From Morganella morganii (GTDB lineage: Bacteria > Pseudomonadota > Gammaproteobacteria > Enterobacterales > Enterobacteriaceae), in assembly GCF_019402645.1 (NCBI RefSeq), contig NZ_VKKS01000001.1, positions 1,550,970 to 1,614,969 on the forward strand: a stretch of 64,000 bases of DNA, given 5' to 3'. The notes beneath the pieces are model-generated. The model made no database searches, was not told the origin of the DNA, and was given only the letters and a program-made list of their open reading frames with translations. Shown here one piece after another: positions 31,182 through 43,500 of this stretch. The translations under genes and the position numbers were made by a program. Within the stretch, counting starts at the first letter, position 1, and each line of letters starts with the position of its first letter.

Positions 31182-31610
31182 TTACTGTCTTCTTTTTACG
31201 CTGCTTACAGCTTCCATTTTTCCATCGATATCTTTGATAAAAAATGTAACCCCAATCGATCGCCTGTGAGGATTAATTTTTTTTGCCTGCTTTTTCTGTA
31301 AAACTGTTGAGGCCGTATACGCATATTTTCCATTTACCTGATACTGAATATCAGGTGATGGCAAACAATTTTTTTCATCTAACTTAACAGGATTCGCACT
31401 AAAATCCATATCTGCGATAGTTTTTTGTTCTTTAAAATCAAACACATTGATGTATGTAATGTATTCATCATCAGATGCATCTGGGGTTTTAACACATAAC
31501 TTACCCGCACTCATACTGATATCACCGTTGACTATTAATGGCTTTGGATCATTCGCATGCCAGCACCCGCTCAACAGAAATACCAAAGGAATAATTATAA
31601 ATTTGTGCAT
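31182..31610 (-). CDS. Putative T6SS immunity lipoprotein, second copy
   Basis: A 142-residue protein with a lipoprotein signal (MHKFIIIPLVFLLSGCWHAN; lipobox LSGC). It is about 50% identical by eye to the gene at 31725-32153: shared PLIVNGDISM, ICVK/LCVK, DDEY, FKEQK, CLP, YQ, DRR/HRR, EAVSS. It belongs to the kind of periplasmic lipoproteins annotated as T6SS immunity. Start at ATG 31610; the frame is open to 31658. As a tandem duplicate beside a metallopeptidase effector it may protect against the same or a variant toxin. Confidence 0.65.
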   Translation of the reverse strand: MHKFIIIPLVFLLSGCWHANDPKPLIVNGDISMSAGKLCVKTPDASDDEYITYINVFDFKEQKTIADMDFSANPVKLDEKNCLPSPDIQYQVNGKYAYTASTVLQKKQAKKINPHRRSIGVTFFIKDIDGKMEAVSSVKRRQ

Positions 31611-31697
31611 ATTAATCCTACAAAATAGTTTTCGGCAGAGTTGAGCGATACATAACACAGTAGAAATTAAGCGCTATCATAAATATAAAAAGATCAG

Positions 31698-31717
31698 ACA
31701 CCGGTTAAGTCGGTGCC
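31698..31717 (-). terminator. Hairpin between the two immunity-like genes
   Basis: Minus-strand GGCACCGA-CTTAA-CCGGTGT-type hairpin with a CTTTTTATATTT tail; its similarity to 31152-31171 suggests that gene plus terminator were duplicated together. Confidence 0.55.
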
Positions 31718-31724
31718 TGCCATA

Positions 31725-32153
31725 TCATTGCTTTCTTTTTGTACTACTTACTGCTTCTATTTTCCCATTGACATCTTCGATAAGAAATGAAACATCAATA
31801 GCTCTGCGATCCGGTTTAATACCTCTTTTTTGTTTTTCTTTTAAAACAGTAACAGCCGTATAACTGTATCTATTTCCCGCCTGATACTGAAAGTCAGGGA
31901 TCGGCAGACATTTATTGCTTTCTAATTTTATTAAGTTTGATGTGTAATCAACTCTTGCAATTTCTTTTTGTTCTTTAAAACTAAAAATTTCTATAAATTT
32001 AATATATTCATCATCAAAAGATGTCGGTGATTTCACACAAATTTTGTTTGTATCAATACTAACATCCCCATTGACTATTATTGGCCTTGGGTCATTAGTA
32101 TACCAGCACGCACCAAGCATAAAAACCAAAGGGATAATTATAAACTTACGCAT
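31725..32153 (-). CDS. Putative T6SS immunity lipoprotein, first copy
   Basis: A 142-residue protein with a lipoprotein signal (MRKFIIIPLVFMLGACWYTN; lipobox LGAC), predicted to be anchored facing the periplasm. It lies 9 bases downstream of the HELTH metallopeptidase gene, the usual effector-immunity order. AT-rich compared with the flanking chromosome. Immunity role is inferred from location, export signal and resemblance to lipoproteins paired with VgrG2b-type toxins. Confidence 0.7.
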   Translation of the reverse strand: MRKFIIIPLVFMLGACWYTNDPRPIIVNGDVSIDTNKICVKSPTSFDDEYIKFIEIFSFKEQKEIARVDYTSNLIKLESNKCLPIPDFQYQAGNRYSYTAVTVLKEKQKRGIKPDRRAIDVSFLIEDVNGKIEAVSSTKRKQ

Positions 32154-32162
32154 AACCGGCTC

Positions 32163-32720
32163 CTATAAAATAGAACTTGGTAGTACTGACCTATAGATAT
32201 CCTGTATGGTATCAGTGTCTATTTTATTACTTATACGAATATAGCCATCCTGAATACCATAAATAAACCTGTCGACACCATACGTTTTCAGAATAAAATA
32301 ATCAGCGACTATACTGGCTTGTTGCTCCATGCCGTAATCGCTTAATTTTTTCTTTCTATCAAGTGAATAGTTGTAGTCAACAAAGTTACTAAACAGTCCT
32401 CTTGTTCTGACCCACATCCCATTTTGATGCTGCCAGACATGCGTAAGTTCATGAATAAAGATATGTTTGTTAATAATTGATTCTTCCGAAAAATCATGCT
32501 TATACAACGCTGCTCTAAAGTAAATATCCCCATTAGGTGCCATTGCTACATTATCTGACTGCATGCCGAACGGAAGATAACTATCGCAATGAACCCAAAC
32601 ATTATATGACATTGAATTACCAAATATAGTTTTAGCCATTGCCATTTCACCGAGTGTTATCTGTCTCAGCATCGGTTCTTTTATTTCTTTCTTCTTATTT
32701 TCCTGCGTAATAATACCCAT
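32163..32720 (-). CDS. HELTH zinc-metallopeptidase, T6SS effector-like toxin
   Basis: A 185-residue protein without a signal peptide. The zinc motif is HELTH at residues 90-94 (IFIHELTHVWQHQ), with a candidate third ligand Glu132 in SDYGMEQQASIVADY. Upstream features LGEMAMAKTIFGNS and AMAPNGDIYF match the C-terminal metallopeptidase domains of VgrG2b/Rhs-type effectors as I remember them. AAGGAG lies five bases before the ATG. It encodes only the toxin domain, with no VgrG, PAAR or Rhs part, so a separate carrier would be needed. Followed by two immunity-like lipoproteins. Confidence 0.7.
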   Translation of the reverse strand: MGIITQENKKKEIKEPMLRQITLGEMAMAKTIFGNSMSYNVWVHCDSYLPFGMQSDNVAMAPNGDIYFRAALYKHDFSEESIINKHIFIHELTHVWQHQNGMWVRTRGLFSNFVDYNYSLDRKKKLSDYGMEQQASIVADYFILKTYGVDRFIYGIQDGYIRISNKIDTDTIQDIYRSVLPSSIL

Positions 32721-33012: not shown

Positions 33013-33507
33013 TCACCGGTAACTTTCGAGCAGTTTTTCCTTCGCTTTCAGGTCAATGATACAGAGATTAAGGAGTCTGGTATTCTCATCAGCCCGCTGA
33101 GCTTCACGCCCATACTTTTCAAGTGTGCTTCGTAGTTGTCGAGAAAGTTCACCGGCTTTGTCTCTCTCAGTTCGGCAGGTATCGGCGTGGATGGGATCTG
33201 TAATTTCTGCTTTCTCGGTACCGGCTGGCTGCTGCATGCGGTCAAAATGATTAAGCACCCGATCAAGCAGAGCCTCTGTACGTATCGTATCACTCTTTTT
33301 TCCATCCTGATATTCCCCGACGCTTACCTGCTGCCGTTCATCTGCATCACGGCGCAGCTCGATATTTGTGGCCACATCTTTCTCATCCTGCTGCTGACCG
33401 GCAATCTGCCCTTTCATTTGCCGGTTATCATGCAGGGTACTGCTGGCCCACCAGCCGGCAGTGAAAGAGACAGCCAGAGCGATCAGAGCAATGGCTATAT
33501 TCTTCAT
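33013..33507 (-). CDS. Phage inner-membrane spanin (Rz-like)
   Basis: A 164-residue protein with one N-terminal membrane anchor (AIALIALAVSFTAGWWASS) and a long helical, charged periplasmic part, ending in a Cys/Leu-rich helix. This is the i-spanin plan. Together with the o-spanin embedded in its sequence it fuses inner and outer membranes at the last step of lysis. Its start overlaps the endolysin stop. Confidence 0.8.
   Translation of the reverse strand: MKNIAIALIALAVSFTAGWWASSTLHDNRQMKGQIAGQQQDEKDVATNIELRRDADERQQVSVGEYQDGKKSDTIRTEALLDRVLNHFDRMQQPAGTEKAEITDPIHADTCRTERDKAGELSRQLRSTLEKYGREAQRADENTRLLNLCIIDLKAKEKLLESYR
33048..33305 (-). CDS. Phage outer-membrane spanin lipoprotein (Rz1-like), nested in Rz
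   Basis: An 85-residue lipoprotein lying wholly inside the Rz gene in another frame. The lipobox is LTACSS after a hydrophobic signal (LCLIGCLIILTAC), and the mature part is Pro-rich (QPVPRKQKLQIPSTPIPAEL), as in Rz1. Nested spanin pairs are well known in podoviruses and lambdoid phages. Confidence 0.8.
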   Translation of the reverse strand: MEKRVIRYVQRLCLIGCLIILTACSSQPVPRKQKLQIPSTPIPAELRETKPVNFLDNYEAHLKSMGVKLSGLMRIPDSLISVSLT

Positions 33508-33851
33508 CAGCGAACCCCGTTGTGTTCAAGGCTAAAATGATTACCGTCCGGGCGTGTTTTAAACCGACCACCCCAGCTACCACCCAGCGATTCCCAATAT
33601 TCACCGAGTTCGGTGAAGTCGCTGGTGGCTGTTAACCATTTGCCGCTGGCGTCGAACAGGTTGAAATCCACAGCCAGGCGCTGAGTGTGCAGGCTGTTAC
33701 TGATCCCTGCTCCGGTCTTGGCATTAAGCTTCGCCTGTTCCGGTGTTCTGTACGCTTCGCCAAACGTCAGCTTATAGCCTTTGCTCTGAGCAAAGACAAT
33801 TAACTTCGCCACCATACCGGTAAAGGCATTTTGTTTATCTACCATAGACAT
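33507..33851 (-). CDS. Phage endolysin, M15 L-alanyl-D-glutamate peptidase
   Basis: A 114-residue murein peptidase. The zinc ligands are visible as His55 and Asp62 in SLHTQRLAVDFNLF and His105 in NHFSLEH; the entry motif GEAYRTPEQA is typical of the family. It cuts the peptide stem of peptidoglycan once the holin opens the membrane. It has no export signal, so it depends on the holin. Confidence 0.88.
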   Translation of the reverse strand: MSMVDKQNAFTGMVAKLIVFAQSKGYKLTFGEAYRTPEQAKLNAKTGAGISNSLHTQRLAVDFNLFDASGKWLTATSDFTELGEYWESLGGSWGGRFKTRPDGNHFSLEHNGVR

Positions 33852-33854
33852 AAA

Positions 33855-34130
33855 TCACCCCGCTTTAAAAAATGACATGACATTGCCGCGATACACCAGC
33901 ACCGCAGCACAGATAAGAAGATTTGAAATCACGCTGGTGATATCAGCGTGATAGACAGGATCAAAGTAGGCCCGTACCGGCACACTCGCGGAATAAGAGA
34001 GAATGAGCCAAGCTATCCATGCCCCTTTTGCGCAGTGCTGCCGGCCGTTTCGTCTGAACGAAAACACCCGGACAAAAATCACTGAGCAGATGACAGCATT
34101 CAGAATGATCAAGACTTTCTCAAACATCAT
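33855..34130 (-). CDS. Holin-like protein with three membrane segments
   Basis: A 91-residue protein with hydrophobic segments at about residues 6-23, 38-52 and 65-81, fitting phage 3TM holins. It lies between the second holin-like protein and the endolysin and overlaps the upstream gene by 11 bases. One of the pair may be the holin and the other an antiholin. Confidence 0.7.
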   Translation of the reverse strand: MMFEKVLIILNAVICSVIFVRVFSFRRNGRQHCAKGAWIAWLILSYSASVPVRAYFDPVYHADITSVISNLLICAAVLVYRGNVMSFFKAG

Positions 34131-34491
34131 TGCCTCCTTGCGGGCTATCCGCTTTTCGGTACGCTTTGATGCTCAGCTTCACCGACAGTAACGCTGATAC
34201 AAAAGCGCCCACGGCGTCGATACTATCGATGCTGTAGGCGTCAGGTGGGATCTCAAATATCTTGGTTACTTTGATGAACATGGCCGCTGCCGGACTGAAA
34301 AACAGCAGACCGGAAATGAAACTGACCAGAGCCAGTACCGACCGGCGCAGCAGTGTGTACTCCGTTGCGGCAGTGATGAAATAGATGGCCCCCATCAGGG
34401 ACCCCATCACCACCTCGGCGGGCAGCCCGGCAAAGTAGCTGAAGAACGCAGCAAGGCTGAGCGTGGTTTTTACAGAGAGGTCTTCATGCAT
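34120..34491 (-). CDS. Putative phage holin
   Basis: A 123-residue protein with several membrane helices (LAAFFSYFAGLPAEVVMGSL, AIYFITAATEY, VLALVSFISGLLFFSPAAAMF) and a charged C terminus. It resembles the putative-holin family of podoviruses. First gene of the lysis cassette; the 268 bases to its right (34492-34759) contain no ORF. Confidence 0.7.
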   Translation of the reverse strand: MHEDLSVKTTLSLAAFFSYFAGLPAEVVMGSLMGAIYFITAATEYTLLRRSVLALVSFISGLLFFSPAAAMFIKVTKIFEIPPDAYSIDSIDAVGAFVSALLSVKLSIKAYRKADSPQGGNDV

Positions 34492-34759
34492 TGCGTAGCA
34501 CCATGATTATTAAATAACCATGATGCTACATGAGAAAAAAGATAAACAAAAATGCACACAAGGATAATTAATGGCAGCAGGTAATCTCTACAAAAATATC
34601 ACTCTTAAATAGCTCATGCCATTCAGAGATAATCCCATCGTTCAAATTCCATCATGGTACTCATAATTTAAATCAAATGGTTTATATCATTCCTTGATAT
34701 TGTCATAATGTGCTTCTGTCGAACCACAACACAAAATGTTCTATAAGAAGGGTAAAGTC

Positions 34760-35503
34760 ATGACGATAGGAAAATATTGCCTCATTTCCGATAAAGCCAC
34801 TATCGGAGAAAATGTCACAATTGGTGATTTTGTGACAATTCATGACAATGTCATTATTGAGGACAATACAATTATCGAATCTTATTGTGAGATAGGTGTA
34901 ACTAATCAGCTCTCTGGTGGAGAAAAATTAACGATTAGTAAGAACTCCCACATTCGTTCTCATAGTATTTTTTATGAGGGTTCCACATTTGGTGAAGGTT
35001 TAGTGACAGGGCATCGTGTTACTGTCCGCGAAAAAACTAAAGCTGGCAAGGGGTTTCAAATAGGGACCTTATCAGACATACAAGGCCACTGTGAAATTGG
35101 TAACTATGTAAGAACACATAGCAATGTACATATCGGACAACATAGTAAAATAGGAAATTATGTCTGGCTATTCCCTTATGTGGTACTAACCAATGACCCC
35201 CACCCACCAAGCAACGTTATGATGGGTGTTACAATTGAAGATTTTTCAGTAATAGCAACAATGTCCGTAATTTTACCAGGAGTTCACATTGCGCAAGGCT
35301 GCCTAATTGGCGCTCATTCCAGCTTATCTGGGAAAACAGAGGCGGACATGATCTATGCAGGAAATCCTGCTCGCTGTGTTGGCCCCACCAGTCGGCTTAA
35401 GTTGCGCGATGGATCCCGCAAGCCTGCCTACCCATGGAGAAGACATTTTTCCCGAGGATACCCTCAAGATGTAGTAGAAGAATGGCTGAAGGAAATTAAT
35501 TAA
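34760..35503 (+). CDS. Hexapeptide-repeat acyltransferase (phage cargo gene)
   Basis: A 247-residue left-handed beta-helix protein: repeated [IV]-G-x4 units such as TIGENVTIGDFVTIHDNVII and CEIGNYVRTHSNVHIG, and a C-terminal NPARCVG coenzyme A-site motif. It is in the family of sugar O-/N-acyltransferases. It runs against the phage late genes, has low GC, and its stop abuts the MaoC gene start, so the two form one unit. I start at ATG 34760 (AAGGGTAA upstream). A role in altering surface polysaccharide is inferred. Confidence 0.75.
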   Translation: MTIGKYCLISDKATIGENVTIGDFVTIHDNVIIEDNTIIESYCEIGVTNQLSGGEKLTISKNSHIRSHSIFYEGSTFGEGLVTGHRVTVREKTKAGKGFQIGTLSDIQGHCEIGNYVRTHSNVHIGQHSKIGNYVWLFPYVVLTNDPHPPSNVMMGVTIEDFSVIATMSVILPGVHIAQGCLIGAHSSLSGKTEADMIYAGNPARCVGPTSRLKLRDGSRKPAYPWRRHFSRGYPQDVVEEWLKEIN

Positions 35504-35908
35504 ATGTACAAAATAGAAGAAATTAAAATTGGCATGTCTGCATCCTATTCACAAACAATAACCGATGCTGACGTTAAGGGGTTCGCTGCGTTGTCAGGAG
35601 ACAGAAACCCAGCGCATATGGATGATGTATATGCTGCATCATCTCGATACAAAAAACGCATAGCTCACGGCATGCTTAGCACAAGCTTTTTTTCTGCCAT
35701 CTTCGGAACCAGATTACCCGGAGAGGGCTGCGTATATGTAGCACAGAATACAAAATTCAGAAAGCCTGTTTACATCGGTGATACCGTTGTCGCCACAGTT
35801 GAAGTTAAGGATGTTGATATAGAAAAACGCCGAGTATACTTTAATACTTATTGCAAGGTTGGTAATTCAAAGGTTATTACCGGTGATGCTGAGATTTATA
35901 TACCATAA
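35504..35908 (+). CDS. MaoC-family (R)-specific enoyl-CoA hydratase-like protein
   Basis: A 134-residue hot-dog-fold protein with the hydratase-2 motif: Asp33 and His38 in LSGDRNPAHMDDVYAAS, and the following RIAHGMLSTSFFSA. Such enzymes make (R)-3-hydroxyacyl-CoA. The ATG follows the acyltransferase stop without a gap. Paired with the acyltransferase it may supply a hydroxyacyl donor, for example 3-hydroxybutyryl-CoA, for a sugar; this is inference. Confidence 0.8.
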   Translation: MYKIEEIKIGMSASYSQTITDADVKGFAALSGDRNPAHMDDVYAASSRYKKRIAHGMLSTSFFSAIFGTRLPGEGCVYVAQNTKFRKPVYIGDTVVATVEVKDVDIEKRRVYFNTYCKVGNSKVITGDAEIYIP

Positions 35909-35934: not shown

Positions 35935-35966
35935 AAATGCGCGCCAATGAATAATGCGCGCATTTC
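35935..35966. terminator. Bidirectional terminator between the cargo pair and the tailspike
   Basis: AAATGCGCGC / GCGCGCATTT inverted repeat with an 11-base loop between convergent genes. Confidence 0.7.
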
Positions 35967-35986: not shown

Positions 35987-38317
35987 TCAAGACACTTGCT
36001 GCAATACATTGACTCCTGCATTTATACATTTAAACATAACAGTTCTGTATTGCCCAAGTTGATAATTAATTGAACCTTGAGTTAATACACTATTGGTTTT
36101 ATATTCAAGAATTGTATTTTTACCGTTTGTCGTAACAACAATATTCCTCCCTAATTGAGCGCCATATATATGCCCAATAGTAACGTTATCTTTAGTTACT
36201 CTAATTCCGTACCCTGGTGGGTATTTTGTTAAATCAATATTTCCTGTTTCTGATACATCGATATAACCTCGATCCATTCCATCACACTCAGACACTACTA
36301 CAGTGGAATCAATATAAATATTGATTATTTCATCAACCGGATATTCATTACCACTAGCAAAACATCCTCCATAAAGTAGTGCGCCTCGCTCCCTTTTGCC
36401 ACTAGAGCCACTTGTAAAACCGAATACATTATTTGTAAAAGAACCTCCATTAACATAGCATCCATACAAATTTTTCTCATCAGATGATGCGGATATTCCT
36501 AAAGTGCTCTCTGATATCTTTCCTCTTTTGCTAATATGAATTGATTCTCGTGATGGGGAAAGGCCAATAAACTGACAACCAATAAAATTTATATGATCTA
36601 TATTAAACCAACCAATATTAATGCTCCCCTCTGGTGCTAACCATATATCATTATTAAATGAAAAATAAGTGCCATTCCCGACCATGAAATAAGGAACATC
36701 TTTTCTATCAAGGAGAAGTTGCTTAGCCAGATATTCAACATCAACTGGTATCCATGTATTATTAGTGAACTGAAATCGATATGATGAACCAAAGTCAATG
36801 CAGGCTGATTCATAAGCAAATCTCCCATCATCATTTTCACTACTATCGACAGATCTTGCTACTTCGAAGTGACATTTATCAAAACAAAAATTCCAACATT
36901 TATCAAACTTAATCATGTATGGGGTAAGTTCAAAATGGCAACCTGAAAAGTAAACATAATTTGCATCTATCAGGCACGTTACAGCTGGATTTTGTTTATT
37001 TCCTGATGCAAGAAAAGAGCAATTAGTGAAATAAGTATCTTGGATATATCCTAGCTTCAACGCCTGATTAGGAAAGTACTGGATATTAATTGCATTCACA
37101 ATTCCCATCCAGCCTATATGATCTAATTGCAAGCCAACATCACACTCACCATCAATACCCCATATCGCAAAATCACGTAGCGTTAACCCGAAGCAATATT
37201 TTTCGGGTGAAATTTTTAGTGTAGCACCTGATTTCACACGGGAATGAATAACAGAGCCACGAACCTGAGACGGTGCGTGACTTGAAGATGTATCTCGAAG
37301 ACCCTGGCCGCCTGCACCATGTATTGACGGAGCATAATCAGCAACTATTGTCGAATTTACAACATATCCACCCGCAGGAATGTACACAGACATATTTCCA
37401 TTCTTGGCAGCATTAATTGCCGCCTGAATTCCAGCGTAGTCGATTGATTGAGACAGATCAGTGACGAAAGAATAAACAGAATTAGCTTCTGCCAGTGTAG
37501 TATAACGCTCACTTAGCGGATGCAATTCACCATCGCCTATGGCTCCGAAATCCTTCACGCTGAGGATGTCAGTATTTTTATCGTGCTGTGTGCGTGCAAC
37601 TGCACCAGCAAAAGTTTGTTTTACTGCAACCAGTGAATCTCCGCGCCCAAAATCAGGGTTCCCTAATTCAGCCAGCACATCAGCCGCACTCCCGGATTCC
37701 GGCACAATAACAACCGGATTACCGCCATCATCAAACGACAGCAGTTTATTGGCGCGATTAACAGCATTAGGCAGTACCGGAATATCCTTATCAGCCACAC
37801 GCAGAGAACGTTTATCTTTCGCGCTTATGTGTTCCTTCATTGTGCCAAAATCAACCGCATCACCGTCTTTTACCGGCTTTCCGAGGTTAGATATCTTGTT
37901 GCCTTTAGCATCGTAGTGATCAGAAATAAAACTCGACTTACGCAGGCACAGCGACAGATACCCCAGCGACTTCTGGATCAGCATGGTGAGGTAGTCGAAA
38001 GCATCCTCATGCACCTCGGCAAAGAATTTCCCCTGGTTGCGCAGGTCAGTTTCCTGAACAACTGGCAGGTCACGGGCAATACCGATTTTCCAGCCTGCTG
38101 CCAGCGGCATTTTTAAAATTACCTTTCCACCACGGTATGAGCCTACACCGCGCAGCGTGTAGTCGGTGCCGTTCGTCAGGATACGCTCCGTTCCGTCCGG
38201 GTCGGCTACGGACACAACGAGATGTTTGGCTTCGAAGATACGGAAACGGAAGTCGAAATCAGTGGTAACACCGTTGCCGGTGTACTCTTCATGGCTAAGT
38301 TCGGTCGATACGGTCAT
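35987..38317 (-). CDS. Phage tailspike with beta-helix domain
   Basis: A 776-residue receptor-binding protein. Residues 1-115 resemble the T7-type tail-fibre N terminus (HEEYTGNGVTTDFDFRFRIF), and a connector follows (LGNPDFGRGDSLVAVKQTF). From the motif SVKDFGAIGDG (about residue 253) on, the sequence has the pectate-lyase-like beta-helix pattern with a probable depolymerase function. The C-terminal two thirds is AT-rich relative to the N terminus, a common sign of receptor-domain exchange. Starts at ATG 38317. Confidence 0.85.
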   Translation of the reverse strand: MTVSTELSHEEYTGNGVTTDFDFRFRIFEAKHLVVSVADPDGTERILTNGTDYTLRGVGSYRGGKVILKMPLAAGWKIGIARDLPVVQETDLRNQGKFFAEVHEDAFDYLTMLIQKSLGYLSLCLRKSSFISDHYDAKGNKISNLGKPVKDGDAVDFGTMKEHISAKDKRSLRVADKDIPVLPNAVNRANKLLSFDDGGNPVVIVPESGSAADVLAELGNPDFGRGDSLVAVKQTFAGAVARTQHDKNTDILSVKDFGAIGDGELHPLSERYTTLAEANSVYSFVTDLSQSIDYAGIQAAINAAKNGNMSVYIPAGGYVVNSTIVADYAPSIHGAGGQGLRDTSSSHAPSQVRGSVIHSRVKSGATLKISPEKYCFGLTLRDFAIWGIDGECDVGLQLDHIGWMGIVNAINIQYFPNQALKLGYIQDTYFTNCSFLASGNKQNPAVTCLIDANYVYFSGCHFELTPYMIKFDKCWNFCFDKCHFEVARSVDSSENDDGRFAYESACIDFGSSYRFQFTNNTWIPVDVEYLAKQLLLDRKDVPYFMVGNGTYFSFNNDIWLAPEGSINIGWFNIDHINFIGCQFIGLSPSRESIHISKRGKISESTLGISASSDEKNLYGCYVNGGSFTNNVFGFTSGSSGKRERGALLYGGCFASGNEYPVDEIINIYIDSTVVVSECDGMDRGYIDVSETGNIDLTKYPPGYGIRVTKDNVTIGHIYGAQLGRNIVVTTNGKNTILEYKTNSVLTQGSINYQLGQYRTVMFKCINAGVNVLQQVS

Positions 38318-38784: not shown

Positions 38785-39848
38785 CTATTCACCAAGCATA
38801 GTTATTATTTTTTTTGATATTGCAGTTAATGATTCAGTTAGTCTTATTTTGCATATTGGAGAAAACCCAGCTCTTGACACATAGTCCTTATTAATAGAAT
38901 GTATATTTTCATCCTTTAAATCCATAGGCACACTTCTTAATTTACCCTCCCCTTCAACAACCAAATCAATATACTCTTTCCCTGTTTCTTTTTTATTCGA
39001 CTCTCTCGTTGATACATATACGCTAGAAAAAACCTCATATTTTTCAAATTGGATCTCATCAACCACGCAAACACTAACACCTTTATTAGATAGTGATCAA
39101 CTAAAATCCCAGGATAATAGCAACCACTATAGGTGCTTTTGATTATCACAACATCATATCTATCTTTTTCTTTTTCGTTTATATATTCCGGAGTAAGAGT
39201 GAATTCATCAAAAATAAGCTCAGATAGTTGTATAAGAGATTCATTAACCACACTTCCAGAATAGAATGTCGTTGGCTGTTCAATTAATCCATAATTCATT
39301 AATATACTGTAGTTCATAGAGAAAAACCCAGTTACCTTTTTAACTATGGCGTCCTCAAACGATTCTCTATTTTTATATCCGGATAAGTCATACATTTTTG
39401 ATATATAGTAATACCTCATAAGCTGAATGGATGAAAGAGTCATCTTATTTAAAATATATAGATAGTTTTTCTTATCCGAAACTGAATAATCCTTATCACT
39501 AATACTTATTATAAAATTAGCATAATAATCGACTTTATCATTTTCCATATCTTTCATGACGAAATTCATTAGCATCTCTGCATACTCAGGCCCTAAAGCT
39601 ATGAGCATATTTGGATTATCTTCATGATTTATCCCATAGAAAAACCTCAGAAGACGCTGCATTTCATTATTATCTGAGTATTTATTAAAATCAGAATAAA
39701 GCTGAGTAATCTTATCTCCATATGGAATAAGTGATGTTAAATTTCTTGCCGTGCTTTTTACAAATGAAGATAAATTACTTTTGATATTTTTATTTATTTC
39801 TTTTTCAATATCAGACTCGTTTGTATTGTTGCTCACGACAATCTCCAA
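38785..39848 (-). pseudogene. Frameshifted low-GC cargo gene of unknown function
   Basis: Frame one opens at 39848 (MEIVVSNNTNESDIEKEINK) and reads natural-looking protein to about LVDHYL near 39085. It then continues in a basic, shadow-like sequence to 38937. The adjacent frame takes over at NKGVSVCVVDEIQFEKYEVF and runs to 38785 with natural composition. A single-base shift between about 39070 and 39095 joins them to roughly 350 residues. The N-terminal part is helical and acidic (ALGPEYAEMLMNFVMKDMEN). No family recognised. A phage-exclusion role is only a guess from its moron position. Confidence 0.6.
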
Positions 39849-40117: not shown

Positions 40118-40537
40118 ATGTTTGGCCTGTTCCGGAAAAAAGAAAAAAACACATTCGACGAAGTTGAAAGAATGGCAAATGATCTCGGTTTCACTGTAAC
40201 CAGCGCCGGAAAAGTGCTGTGCTTTATGAGCCTGAAAAGTGACTATAGCAGCTCCGAGACACTATCAAATCTGTTGGTTATCCATATTGCAAAGCAAATA
40301 AGCGAATTGCCATTAGATGAAATAATCACTGAAAATATGATGTTTTCAGTTAACAATTTTGTTGCATACATTAACGATAGGTATAGTCACCACTATATAA
40401 AAAAAACTTTATATGAAAATGACTTTAAAGCCATCATCACAATGGTAGCGTTAGATAGTAATGGTTTTGCTCTTGCTGATAAAATAGTTGAGCAGAATAA
40501 TCCGGTAAGTCAGTCTACTCTGCTCTCTCCTATTTAG
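40118..40537 (+). CDS. Hypothetical phage cargo protein
   Basis: A 139-residue soluble protein starting MFGLFRKKEKNTFDEVERMA with GAGAAAG upstream. The middle is helical and has no membrane segments. It lies on the plus strand against the late operon and has low GC, like the other cargo genes. No family recognised. Confidence 0.5.
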   Translation: MFGLFRKKEKNTFDEVERMANDLGFTVTSAGKVLCFMSLKSDYSSSETLSNLLVIHIAKQISELPLDEIITENMMFSVNNFVAYINDRYSHHYIKKTLYENDFKAIITMVALDSNGFALADKIVEQNNPVSQSTLLSPI

Positions 40538-40540
40538 GGA

Positions 40541-43500
40541 TTATTTCATCTGTTCTTCAACCTGATTAAGTAATGGTGCCAAATAAAACAGGTTCTGGAA
40601 AGGCAATAACTTACGTACAGATCGCACTTCGTGATCATCAAATTCACCATTCAGCACACCGGCAGTGATGTTTTTGATATCACCGCCAAGGTCGAATGTC
40701 GGCCCCAGTAACGCGCCGATACCGTTACGGCTCTGATAGCGTGATGCTGGTGGACCGCCGAACATGGCACTCATGCCATAGGTGCCACCGCTGAGGTTTT
40801 CCAGTACGTTGTTCGGCTCCCCCAGCCAGCCCATCATGCCTGACCAGTCCAGCCCTTCTTTTACCAGGTTAGCAGGATCGGTGTTTATTTCCCGTCCGGC
40901 CATCATGGATTTCAGCACATAAACCAGCGAACCCAGCCCGACCTGCAATAACGCACCGTAATAAAACGAGGCATCACCGGACTGAATACCGGATACCAGC
41001 GCGCGGTTATGGGTGGCAAAAAAGAAGGTTTTAAACTGCATCACTATTTTACCCAACTCACTACTCATCATCAGCGGGGTATCGCCGATGCCCGGCGTGA
41101 TCACCGTGGTGCGGACGTCTTTAAGTATTGCTGATTGAAACGCCTCACGTACAACGCGGTCATCCCACAAATGACTGTGGCCTGTCAGCAGACCGTCCAG
41201 ATCCTCGCCGTGACGGCTGTACTGGTCTGCAATGCGGTGCAGCATGGATTCATCAATACCGATATGTGCCAGCTTGGTGATCTCTTTTTTGCTGAGTTTT
41301 TTACCACCAGCTACGGCCTTAGCCGCGTTCAGTACTTTGGATTGAGTGATAAGCCCGGACCACATTTTCATGGTGTCGGTGTACTGGTTCATCAGCGTGA
41401 AGTTGCCAAACTTCTGTGATGACCATTCCAGCCCGCGCTCCAGGAATGACCGGCGGCTGTACGGGTCATTCAGGTCTGCAATCACTTTTGACCGACTGGA
41501 CAATGCATATTCCAGCCCGATCCCCATCTCCCGCAGATCCGCTTTGGCAATACGCATCTTACTGATGTCCGTCATCATCTTACCGAGTGGTTTCAGTGCC
41601 GAGCGCAGGCCGTGCTGCATAATAGGACGGGCCATATCCGGCAGTGACGAAATAGTCATGCCGCCCAGCAGCCGCAGGAAGTTAACGTGACGCGCCACGC
41701 GACCGGCACGGACAAAGAAACTGGACGGATCTTTCGGTGCGCCGTAGGTTCCCAGCAGGCGATCGCGCATTGCCCGGATATCCCGTAAATCCGCATCGCG
41801 GCGCTTTTCCAGTTTTGCCCGCTCTTTTGGTGTGGCAGCTTCGGATATCAGGCGATTGTAGTCCTCCGTGATCGCTTTTATCTGGCCGTCCATATCAACG
41901 CGGCCAAACCGTTTTGTCAGTTCGATTTCCGGGGCCACCTGGCGGATGTAGTTTTCCATCACGTAATTCACATCCGATTCCAGGAAATCTTTTATCCGTT
42001 CGTCGGGGATGTTCAGGGTTCGTGCCTTTGTGAAGCCAGCGTGCTTTGTCAGTCCGTCCGGGATCAGTTCTCCTGGAACAATGCCTGCGGGTGCGCCGAT
42101 GATTTTATTGATAATATCGTCAGCCGCCGCCTCAAGCTCTTCACGAGCCATTGGCTCCATACGGCGCATGGCTGCCTGACGGCGGCGGTCAAAGCGGGTC
42201 AGTGAATTGGCATGACGGGACAGACGTGCGTATTCATTGCGGAACTGACGCGGTTTATCCAGGATCTCAAGGTGTCGCTGTAGTTTCGGTAAGGTCTGTT
42301 CTGCGTTGTCAATTGCAGACAACTTTCTTTCCAGTTGCGCCTGGCGCTTTGCCTGTTTCTTTGTCTGCTTTTCCAATCCTCTCAGGGCGCTGAGTTCATC
42401 AGTAACCGCCTGCTTTTCACCGATCAGCCTGACGTTTTTATCGACCTCTGACAGCAGTTCTGTTTTTTTACCGGACCAGCTTTCCGCCTCACGAATTTCA
42501 GCGCCGAGTTTATCGGCTGCCGGCCGGGCGTTTTCCGCGCGTTCAATACCGGCAACCGCTTTATCAAGACTGCCTTGCGCTTTATTGACGGCAACCTGAT
42601 TGGTTTCGCCCAGCCAGTCAGCGATAACCTTTTTAAATTCAGACCGGTCACTGAGTATTTTGTCAAATTTATAAATACGCGGGAAATAGCTCTCTGCTGT
42701 AGTGACTTTTACGCCCTCGCGAAGAATACCCAATTCCACCATGTGATCTTTTGTCTGCTCAACGATAGGGCGAATTGCGCGTGCTGCTTCCGCTACCTGT
42801 GGTATGGCATGCTGATCACCATTACGCATAGCATCACCTACCGCCTCGCTGAACTCGATATGACTCATGCGGGTATCACCGCCGATACGGGCGGCCTGTT
42901 TATACTGTTTGTAATAGTCGCGGGTGGACTCAACCTGTTTATAGATCAGTGCATCAAAGCGGCGTACAGCAGTCTCGACCGCGCCAAACGAGACGATCCC
43001 TTCCTCGTTTTTGGCATAGGTGAAATTATTTTCGGCCAATTGCTGGTTAACCTGCCTGGCGATTTTTGACGGTGACTGTGCAACACGGCCAACCGGGCTG
43101 ACATTCATTGTTCGGTTAACAAAAGATGGTCCCTTTATCGCTTCCTGTTCCAGCGTAGTATCGAACACCTCAGCTGCACCGATGCTTCTGTCTCCGGGAA
43201 TATTATTTGGAATATTTTGTGGTTGAGTTTGTTGTTCGCCAATCACATCATTACGGAATTTAGCAGCCAGCGCGCCACGGTTTTTAACCAGCTGAATTGC
43301 GGATCCCATCACGCCGCCCAGGGTGGCATCAAATGCAACGTTAAGCGCACTCTCTGTCAGCGTCCGTGTTTCCTGTGTTGCACTGAGAGCCGTTTCTGAC
43401 AGCACTCCGGCACCTGCGTTTGATAGCGCCAGTGTACCGGCTGTTCTGGCCACACTTCCGCCGCGTACCGCCAGCCCACCGGGAATAAAAGTCGCTGCTA

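Follow-up and report, generated by a model that had tools for sequence, protein, structure and literature searches.

The window, the whole 64,000-nucleotide stretch of Morganella morganii DNA analysed here, carries a prophage of the epsilon15/phiV10-like podovirus type. By its 1131-aa virion protein the nearest named phages are the Klebsiella phages Kp4865-1 and ST512-KPC3phi13.3 (56%), and the C-terminal 600 aa of its tailspike match the tailspike of Salmonella phage FSL SP-076 (48%). Two genes occupy an accessory slot that lies by the tailspike and is not part of the conserved phage core; the features of this region are as follows.

34760..35503, plus strand: QdtC-family nucleotide-amino-sugar N-acyltransferase, left-handed beta-helix (alternative start at 34736)
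35504..35908, plus strand: MaoC-family (R)-specific enoyl-CoA hydratase-like enzyme, the proposed acyl-donor enzyme
35987..38317, minus strand: tailspike (receptor-binding protein) bordering the slot (PHROG tail/tail spike families, 5.7e-105)
34120..34491, minus strand: holin bordering the slot (Pfam Phage_holin_8, 7.6e-11)
33855..34130, minus strand: second holin (Pfam Phage_holin_3_7, 5e-20)
33507..33851, minus strand: endolysin (Peptidase_M15_4, Pfam 2.8e-10; 85-90% identity in the related loci L207 and L211)
33013..33507, minus strand: Rz-like spanin, from its position and 65% identity to the counterpart in L207 and L211
34681..34709, plus strand: promoter-like site, TTTATA-17-CATAAT with an extended -10 (single consensus match)
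35935..35965, strand undefined: perfect 10-bp inverted repeat, lying where maoC and the tailspike gene converge

The acyltransferase gene ends in TAA at 35501-35503 and the maoC ATG begins at 35504, leaving zero intergenic bases. The start at 34760 is favoured over that at 34736 because it is preceded by a AAGAAGGG ribosome-binding site and homologues start at the same point; an earlier note on this DNA had placed the start there too. The GC content of the pair is 41.2%, whereas the late genes stand at 52.7% and the lysis genes at 51.3%; the adjoining tailspike is also low, at 41.6%. The pair runs antisense to late transcription, since the tailspike, holin, endolysin and Rz genes all lie on the minus strand. 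Coordinates, GC content and strands all agree with the picture first drawn of a low-GC, gapless pair lying antisense between the tailspike and the lysis genes.

The promoter-like site is well positioned but weak, being no better than chance in this region, and is a possible candidate for a lysogenic promoter. The inverted repeat downstream folds as RNA at -14.2 kcal/mol, with 0 of 200 shuffles equally stable and no clear T-run, and may act as a bidirectional terminator. The chance-level promoter match and the antisense orientation would suit genes that were recently captured and are carried unexpressed in the prophage as silent passengers. However, both open reading frames are intact with ribosome-binding sites, and comparison with homologues gave pN of about 0.2 against pS of 0.7-0.9 (synonymous sites saturated), which argues that both are maintained as proteins by purifying selection; the antisense placement, moreover, is common to the corresponding genes of the two closest slot relatives described below. 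We regard a silent passenger as improbable.

The first protein is a hexapeptide-repeat acyltransferase (Pfam Hexapep, 4e-25), as expected from its initial assignment to the beta-helix acyltransferases, and more specifically a QdtC-family nucleotide-sugar N-acyltransferase. Its match to QdtC (PDB 3fs8) had a phmmer E value of 5.2e-58, compared with 1.4e-07 for the runner-up PDB match, and the homology is full-length (residues 11-254 of 255, with 45% identity over 244 residues). Asn159 and Asp160 of QdtC, which we take to be its active-site residues, are both conserved in the alignment. His123 of QdtC was considered as a marker of acyl size and rejected as uninformative, the position being Gly in nearly all proteobacterial members whatever their partner. 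The Thermoanaerobacterium enzyme QdtC is an N-acetyltransferase for dTDP-3-amino-3,6-dideoxyglucose (dTDP-D-Qui3N), and that it uses acetyl-CoA counts against transfer of a 3-hydroxyacyl group by the phage enzyme. The latter differs from QdtC in having a MaoC partner and a phage location, and the partner suggests that it uses a donor other than acetyl-CoA, supplied by MaoC. Because the enzyme belongs specifically to the QdtC family, it would be expected to act in the cytoplasm on the amino group of a nucleotide sugar, and not on a finished O-antigen sugar as was at first supposed.

The second protein belongs to the MaoC family (Pfam MaoC_dehydratas, 1.3e-24), and its PDB matches are (R)-specific enoyl-CoA hydratases (5cpg, 2e-29; PhaJ, 1iq6, 1.5e-25). 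It retains the hydratase-2 motif GDRNPAH, with Asp33 and His38 aligned to Asp31 and His36 of PhaJ, which bears out the (R)-specific hydratase-like protein with an Asp/His pair read from the sequence initially. The MaoC fold is common in fatty-acid metabolism, and relatives at 36-47% identity are metabolic or of unknown setting, as would fit a general metabolic or storage-lipid gain in which an enoyl-CoA hydratase for beta-oxidation or polyhydroxyalkanoate sits beside an unrelated acetyltransferase. In the MaoC tree, however, ten MaoCs from surface-polysaccharide clusters and prophages form one clade (98/98) apart from the metabolic ones; the closest relatives (56-74% identity) fall within this clade, and all ten members have a sugar N-acyltransferase as neighbour, whether they lie in an O-antigen cluster or in a prophage. 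Given also that QdtC is a dedicated nucleotide-sugar enzyme, we consider a metabolic role very unlikely.

The slot itself was compared among relatives defined by a homologous tailspike N-terminus and holins. The tailspike-holin interval holds AT3 genes in four of them (loci L207, L211, L160 and L161): an antisense AT3-SGNH gene in G474, whose virion protein is 77% identical, two antisense AT3 genes in G644, an AT3-SGNH gene annotated as 'O-antigen acetylase' in Uetakevirus PAS61, and an AT3 gene in TL-2011b. The interval of G696 (locus L210) is empty, with no gene between tailspike and holin, and the antisense orientation is common to the two closest relatives, G474 and G644. Phage phiV10 has an oac homologue whose O-acetylation of the O157 antigen brings about conversion (PMC9558356), and the AT3 genes of the relatives together with this conversion identify the interval as an O-antigen conversion slot. 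The AT3 proteins of phiV10, PAS61 and TL-2011b thus come from the same epsilon15-like podovirus group and are linked to lysogenic O-antigen modification (by annotation for PAS61, from PMC9558356 for phiV10), and the genes of PAS61 and TL-2011b were seen directly to share the slot with the present pair. They are membrane O-acetyltransferases, whereas the pair encodes two soluble enzymes predicted to act on a nucleotide sugar. PADLOC returned no match that would assign the pair a role in phage defence.

Several other features of the prophage were recorded. Its very low GC end (34%; 31182-32720 in the window) holds a tandem pair of related lipoprotein-like genes (DUF7480); it also encodes an eCIS_core/metallopeptidase-like protein that has a HELTH motif and falls below the family cut-off. 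Low-GC accessory genes at 38937-39848 and 40118-40537, between the tailspike and virion genes, match only PHROGs of unknown function and gave no meaningful Pfam or PADLOC match. The tRNA-Ser(gct) called by ARAGORN at 43004-43098, antisense within the gene for the 1131-aa virion protein, is probably a false positive.

Homologues were taken from viral contigs, E. coli genomes and species genomes; most loci with the pair were found through the MaoC sequence or the pair, and the Methylococcales locus through the acyltransferase. QdtC-like and MaoC genes stand together next to fdtA and fdtB, or between the two, in E. coli X14-3, in G237 and G069 and in a Methylococcales metagenome-assembled genome, and the phage acyltransferase is 46-74% identical at the amino acid level to homologues in fdtA/fdtB clusters. 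The earlier note would have given up its reading had the pair turned up only in unrelated metabolic clusters; it was found in O-antigen clusters beside fdtA/fdtB. Other QdtC-like loci with fdtA/fdtB lack MaoC and hold a different acyl-donor enzyme in its place, a 3-hydroxyacyl-CoA dehydrogenase (G127) or an AMP-ligase and SDR (G083, G076), and a 3-hydroxyacyl-CoA dehydrogenase gene also lies by a QdtC-like gene in Pseudomonas putida GM4FR and P. paralactis. 3-Hydroxyacyl-CoA dehydrogenases are typically S-specific. MaoCs of the same clade also accompany VioB-type acyltransferases next to 4-aminotransferase/WbpM-type genes (G054, G388). In P. putida GM4FR the dehydrogenase and QdtC-like genes (L052, 6164-8756) are flanked by an S24/HTH repressor with tail-fibre genes, in a tailocin-like arrangement, and by mutS, and may guard the producer against its own tailocin through a change of O-antigen.

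Two E. coli islands, in X14-3 and LCP22S3_I2, share 98.9% identity over rfbA-fdtA and 94.5% over fdtB-wzx; between these flanks the acylation step is encoded by QdtC-like and MaoC genes in one island and by an FdhC-like GNAT in the other. Because the islands are otherwise nearly identical, the two modules are alternatives at one step.

The Morganella host bears the GNAT-type module. Its O-antigen locus (G000:C1:3385290) lies between cpxA and trmL, the position described for Morganella (PMC8649690), and runs rfbA-fdtA-GNAT-fdtB-wzx-wzy-like-glycosyltransferases. The ketoisomerase has FdtA as its best match, and the aminotransferase belongs to the FdtB/QdtB type. For the GNAT the match is FdhC (E = 8e-48), and its identity is 65% to the GNAT of LCP22S3_I2, 53% to FdhC of Acinetobacter nosocomialis and 51% to FdhC of E. 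coli O103. From these assignments the host sugar would be a dTDP-3-amino-3,6-dideoxyhexose, most likely dTDP-Fuc3N, and with this locus the host would make the substrate expected of the phage enzyme, which would bring the alternative type of module. FdhC, the dTDP-Fuc3N 3-hydroxybutyryltransferase of A. nosocomialis and E. coli O103, would act at the step proposed for the pair and is represented at the same place in the E. coli islands by its GNAT relative; it has a GNAT fold non-homologous to QdtC, and so is unlike the hexapeptide phage protein, and the O103 cluster has no MaoC partner. Since the host has its own N-acyltransferase for this sugar, the effect would be a swap of acyl groups, not the new decoration that had been envisaged.

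The host enzyme also raises the possibility that both modules make the same product. FdhC of O103 is reported to give Fuc3N(R3Hb) (PMC4869667); because the characterised FdhC members add (R)-3-hydroxybutyryl, an R-specific phage pair could yield an unchanged antigen, serving to boost or safeguard acylation or to complement hosts that lack the step. The alternation of modules in near-identical E. coli islands suggests selection for different products, however, and the slot otherwise holds acyltransferases that modify the antigen, so that we judge an identical product unlikely, though deserving more weight than the other alternatives. The pair might instead modify a surface glycan other than O-antigen, for example enterobacterial common antigen (ECA) through its TDP-Fuc4NAc, as a TDP-4-amino sugar is available from the ECA locus of the host. 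Against this, QdtC-like enzymes accompany 3-aminotransferases (FdtB) and not 4-aminotransferases, and tailspikes do not usually take ECA as their receptor; we give this alternative very little credence.

Stereochemistry bears on what an acyl swap could achieve. The E. coli O123 antigen carries (S)-3-hydroxybutanoyl (PMC10609480), and a GNAT is encoded together with a MaoC of the same clade as the phage protein in an E. coli cluster whose flippase is of the O123/O186 family. This combination is at odds with an R-hydratase. The (S)-acyl group of O123, together with the pairing of related QdtC-like genes with 3-hydroxyacyl-CoA dehydrogenases, leaves room for a difference between R and S products.

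The earlier note also knew of no phage counterpart, but acyltransferase and MaoC genes occur together in no fewer than three further phage groups, as well as in many O-antigen clusters. Searched against phage records, the acyltransferase gave zero tblastn matches at 1e-5 and MaoC only distant ones; the counterparts lie in prophages and viral contigs. A Mu-like E. coli prophage carries a VioB-type acyltransferase and MaoC just after its tail-fibre assembly genes, and a siphovirus prophage (L048) carries an acyltransferase and MaoC beside lysis genes and integrase. In two viral contigs (L002, 5376-6372; L003, 5391-6372) a MaoC gene overlaps the gene for an LpxA-like hexapeptide acyltransferase, making up a virus-borne pair for 3-hydroxyacyl transfer; genes resembling those for glycosyltransferases or sugar epimerases lie close by. 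The Mu-like pair, for which no published description was found in the papers searched, has the logic of N-acyltransferase plus MaoC in common with the present pair, and its MaoC is homologous (69%); its acyltransferase, however, is of the 4-amino-sugar type and its phage belongs to another family.

The Mu-like pair is present in 6 of 5,426 complete E. coli genomes (F8704-2, S3, F1267, F637, D9 and D4), at no fewer than two insertion sites (prfC/osmY and paoD). All six carriers have vioA O-antigens, vioA-like sequence being found in 171 of the 5,426 genomes, and five have the OgN31 cluster, which occurs in only 8; the naive probabilities of this co-occurrence are 9e-15 and 9e-10, values that ignore kinship among carriers that may be related. 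The OgN31 cluster reads rfbB-rfbA-wzx-vioA (loci L212, L214, L215 and L217), and neither its annotation nor tblastn with the probes used revealed an acyltransferase in it; the other three OgN31 genomes (S21, H14 and ET565) are without a close copy of the pair. The sixth carrier, the O39:NM strain F8704-2, has an O39 cluster in which vioA is annotated as frameshifted (L216, 5001-6112), and OgN31 strains serotype as O39 (PMC4873512). In OgN31 strains that carry it, the Mu-like prophage pair may finish the antigen, and a phage enzyme that completes the pathway there would suit the view that such pairs back up host acylation or complement hosts without the step. In both the present and the Mu-like prophage, the predicted class of the phage acyltransferase fits the amino sugar of the host.

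The AT3 genes in the slot, the fdtA/fdtB context of the homologues, the host pathway and the pairs in other phages lead us to read the genes as an O-antigen module, and we think it probable that they form a cassette for lysogenic conversion, by which the 3-amino-3,6-dideoxyhexose of the host O-antigen receives a different N-acyl group. Slot synteny, the homologues in O-antigen clusters and the host amino-sugar pathway thereby favour the core of the original proposal, that a lysogenic module puts a hydroxyacyl group onto O-antigen. In the mechanism we infer, host RfbA/RfbB, FdtA and FdtB would make the dTDP-3-amino-3,6-dideoxyhexose, which the FdhC-like GNAT would normally acylate. In the lysogen, phage MaoC would provide a 3-hydroxyacyl thioester, probably 3-hydroxybutyryl-CoA from crotonyl-CoA, and the QdtC-like enzyme would move the acyl group to the 3-amino group of the sugar, ahead of its incorporation into the O-unit. 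Competing with the host GNAT, this acylation would give new O-antigen a different N-acyl group, and the changed antigen would cease to fit the tailspike carried by this phage family, with loss of the receptor. A broader proposal, which we hold only tentatively and think somewhat more likely wrong than right, is that unrelated temperate phages have repeatedly captured the amino-sugar N-acylation step of O-antigen synthesis as acyltransferase plus MaoC, exchanging one acyl group for another while the sugar is still linked to its nucleotide (R- against S-3-hydroxybutyryl being one possibility), and that some lineages, such as E. coli OgN31, lost or never had the step and rely on a prophage for it.

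Lysogenic conversion of O-antigen is itself known, and the N-acyl swap by an acyltransferase with MaoC is probably a new chemical variant of it; we found no description of the pair (MaoC with O-antigen, or N-acyl lysogenic conversion) among open-access papers. The phage O-antigen conversions known to us O-acetylate, glucosylate or relink the polymer. If our reading is true, conversion here would act earlier, on the nucleotide sugar and with a dedicated acyl-donor enzyme, so that every repeat unit would be altered from inside. As genes that decide the N-acyl group can sit on a prophage, O-typing by the O-antigen locus alone could misname the structure, with E. coli OgN31/O39 as a ready case. 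The general rule pointed to is that the acyl module of a phage matches the amino-sugar class of its host.
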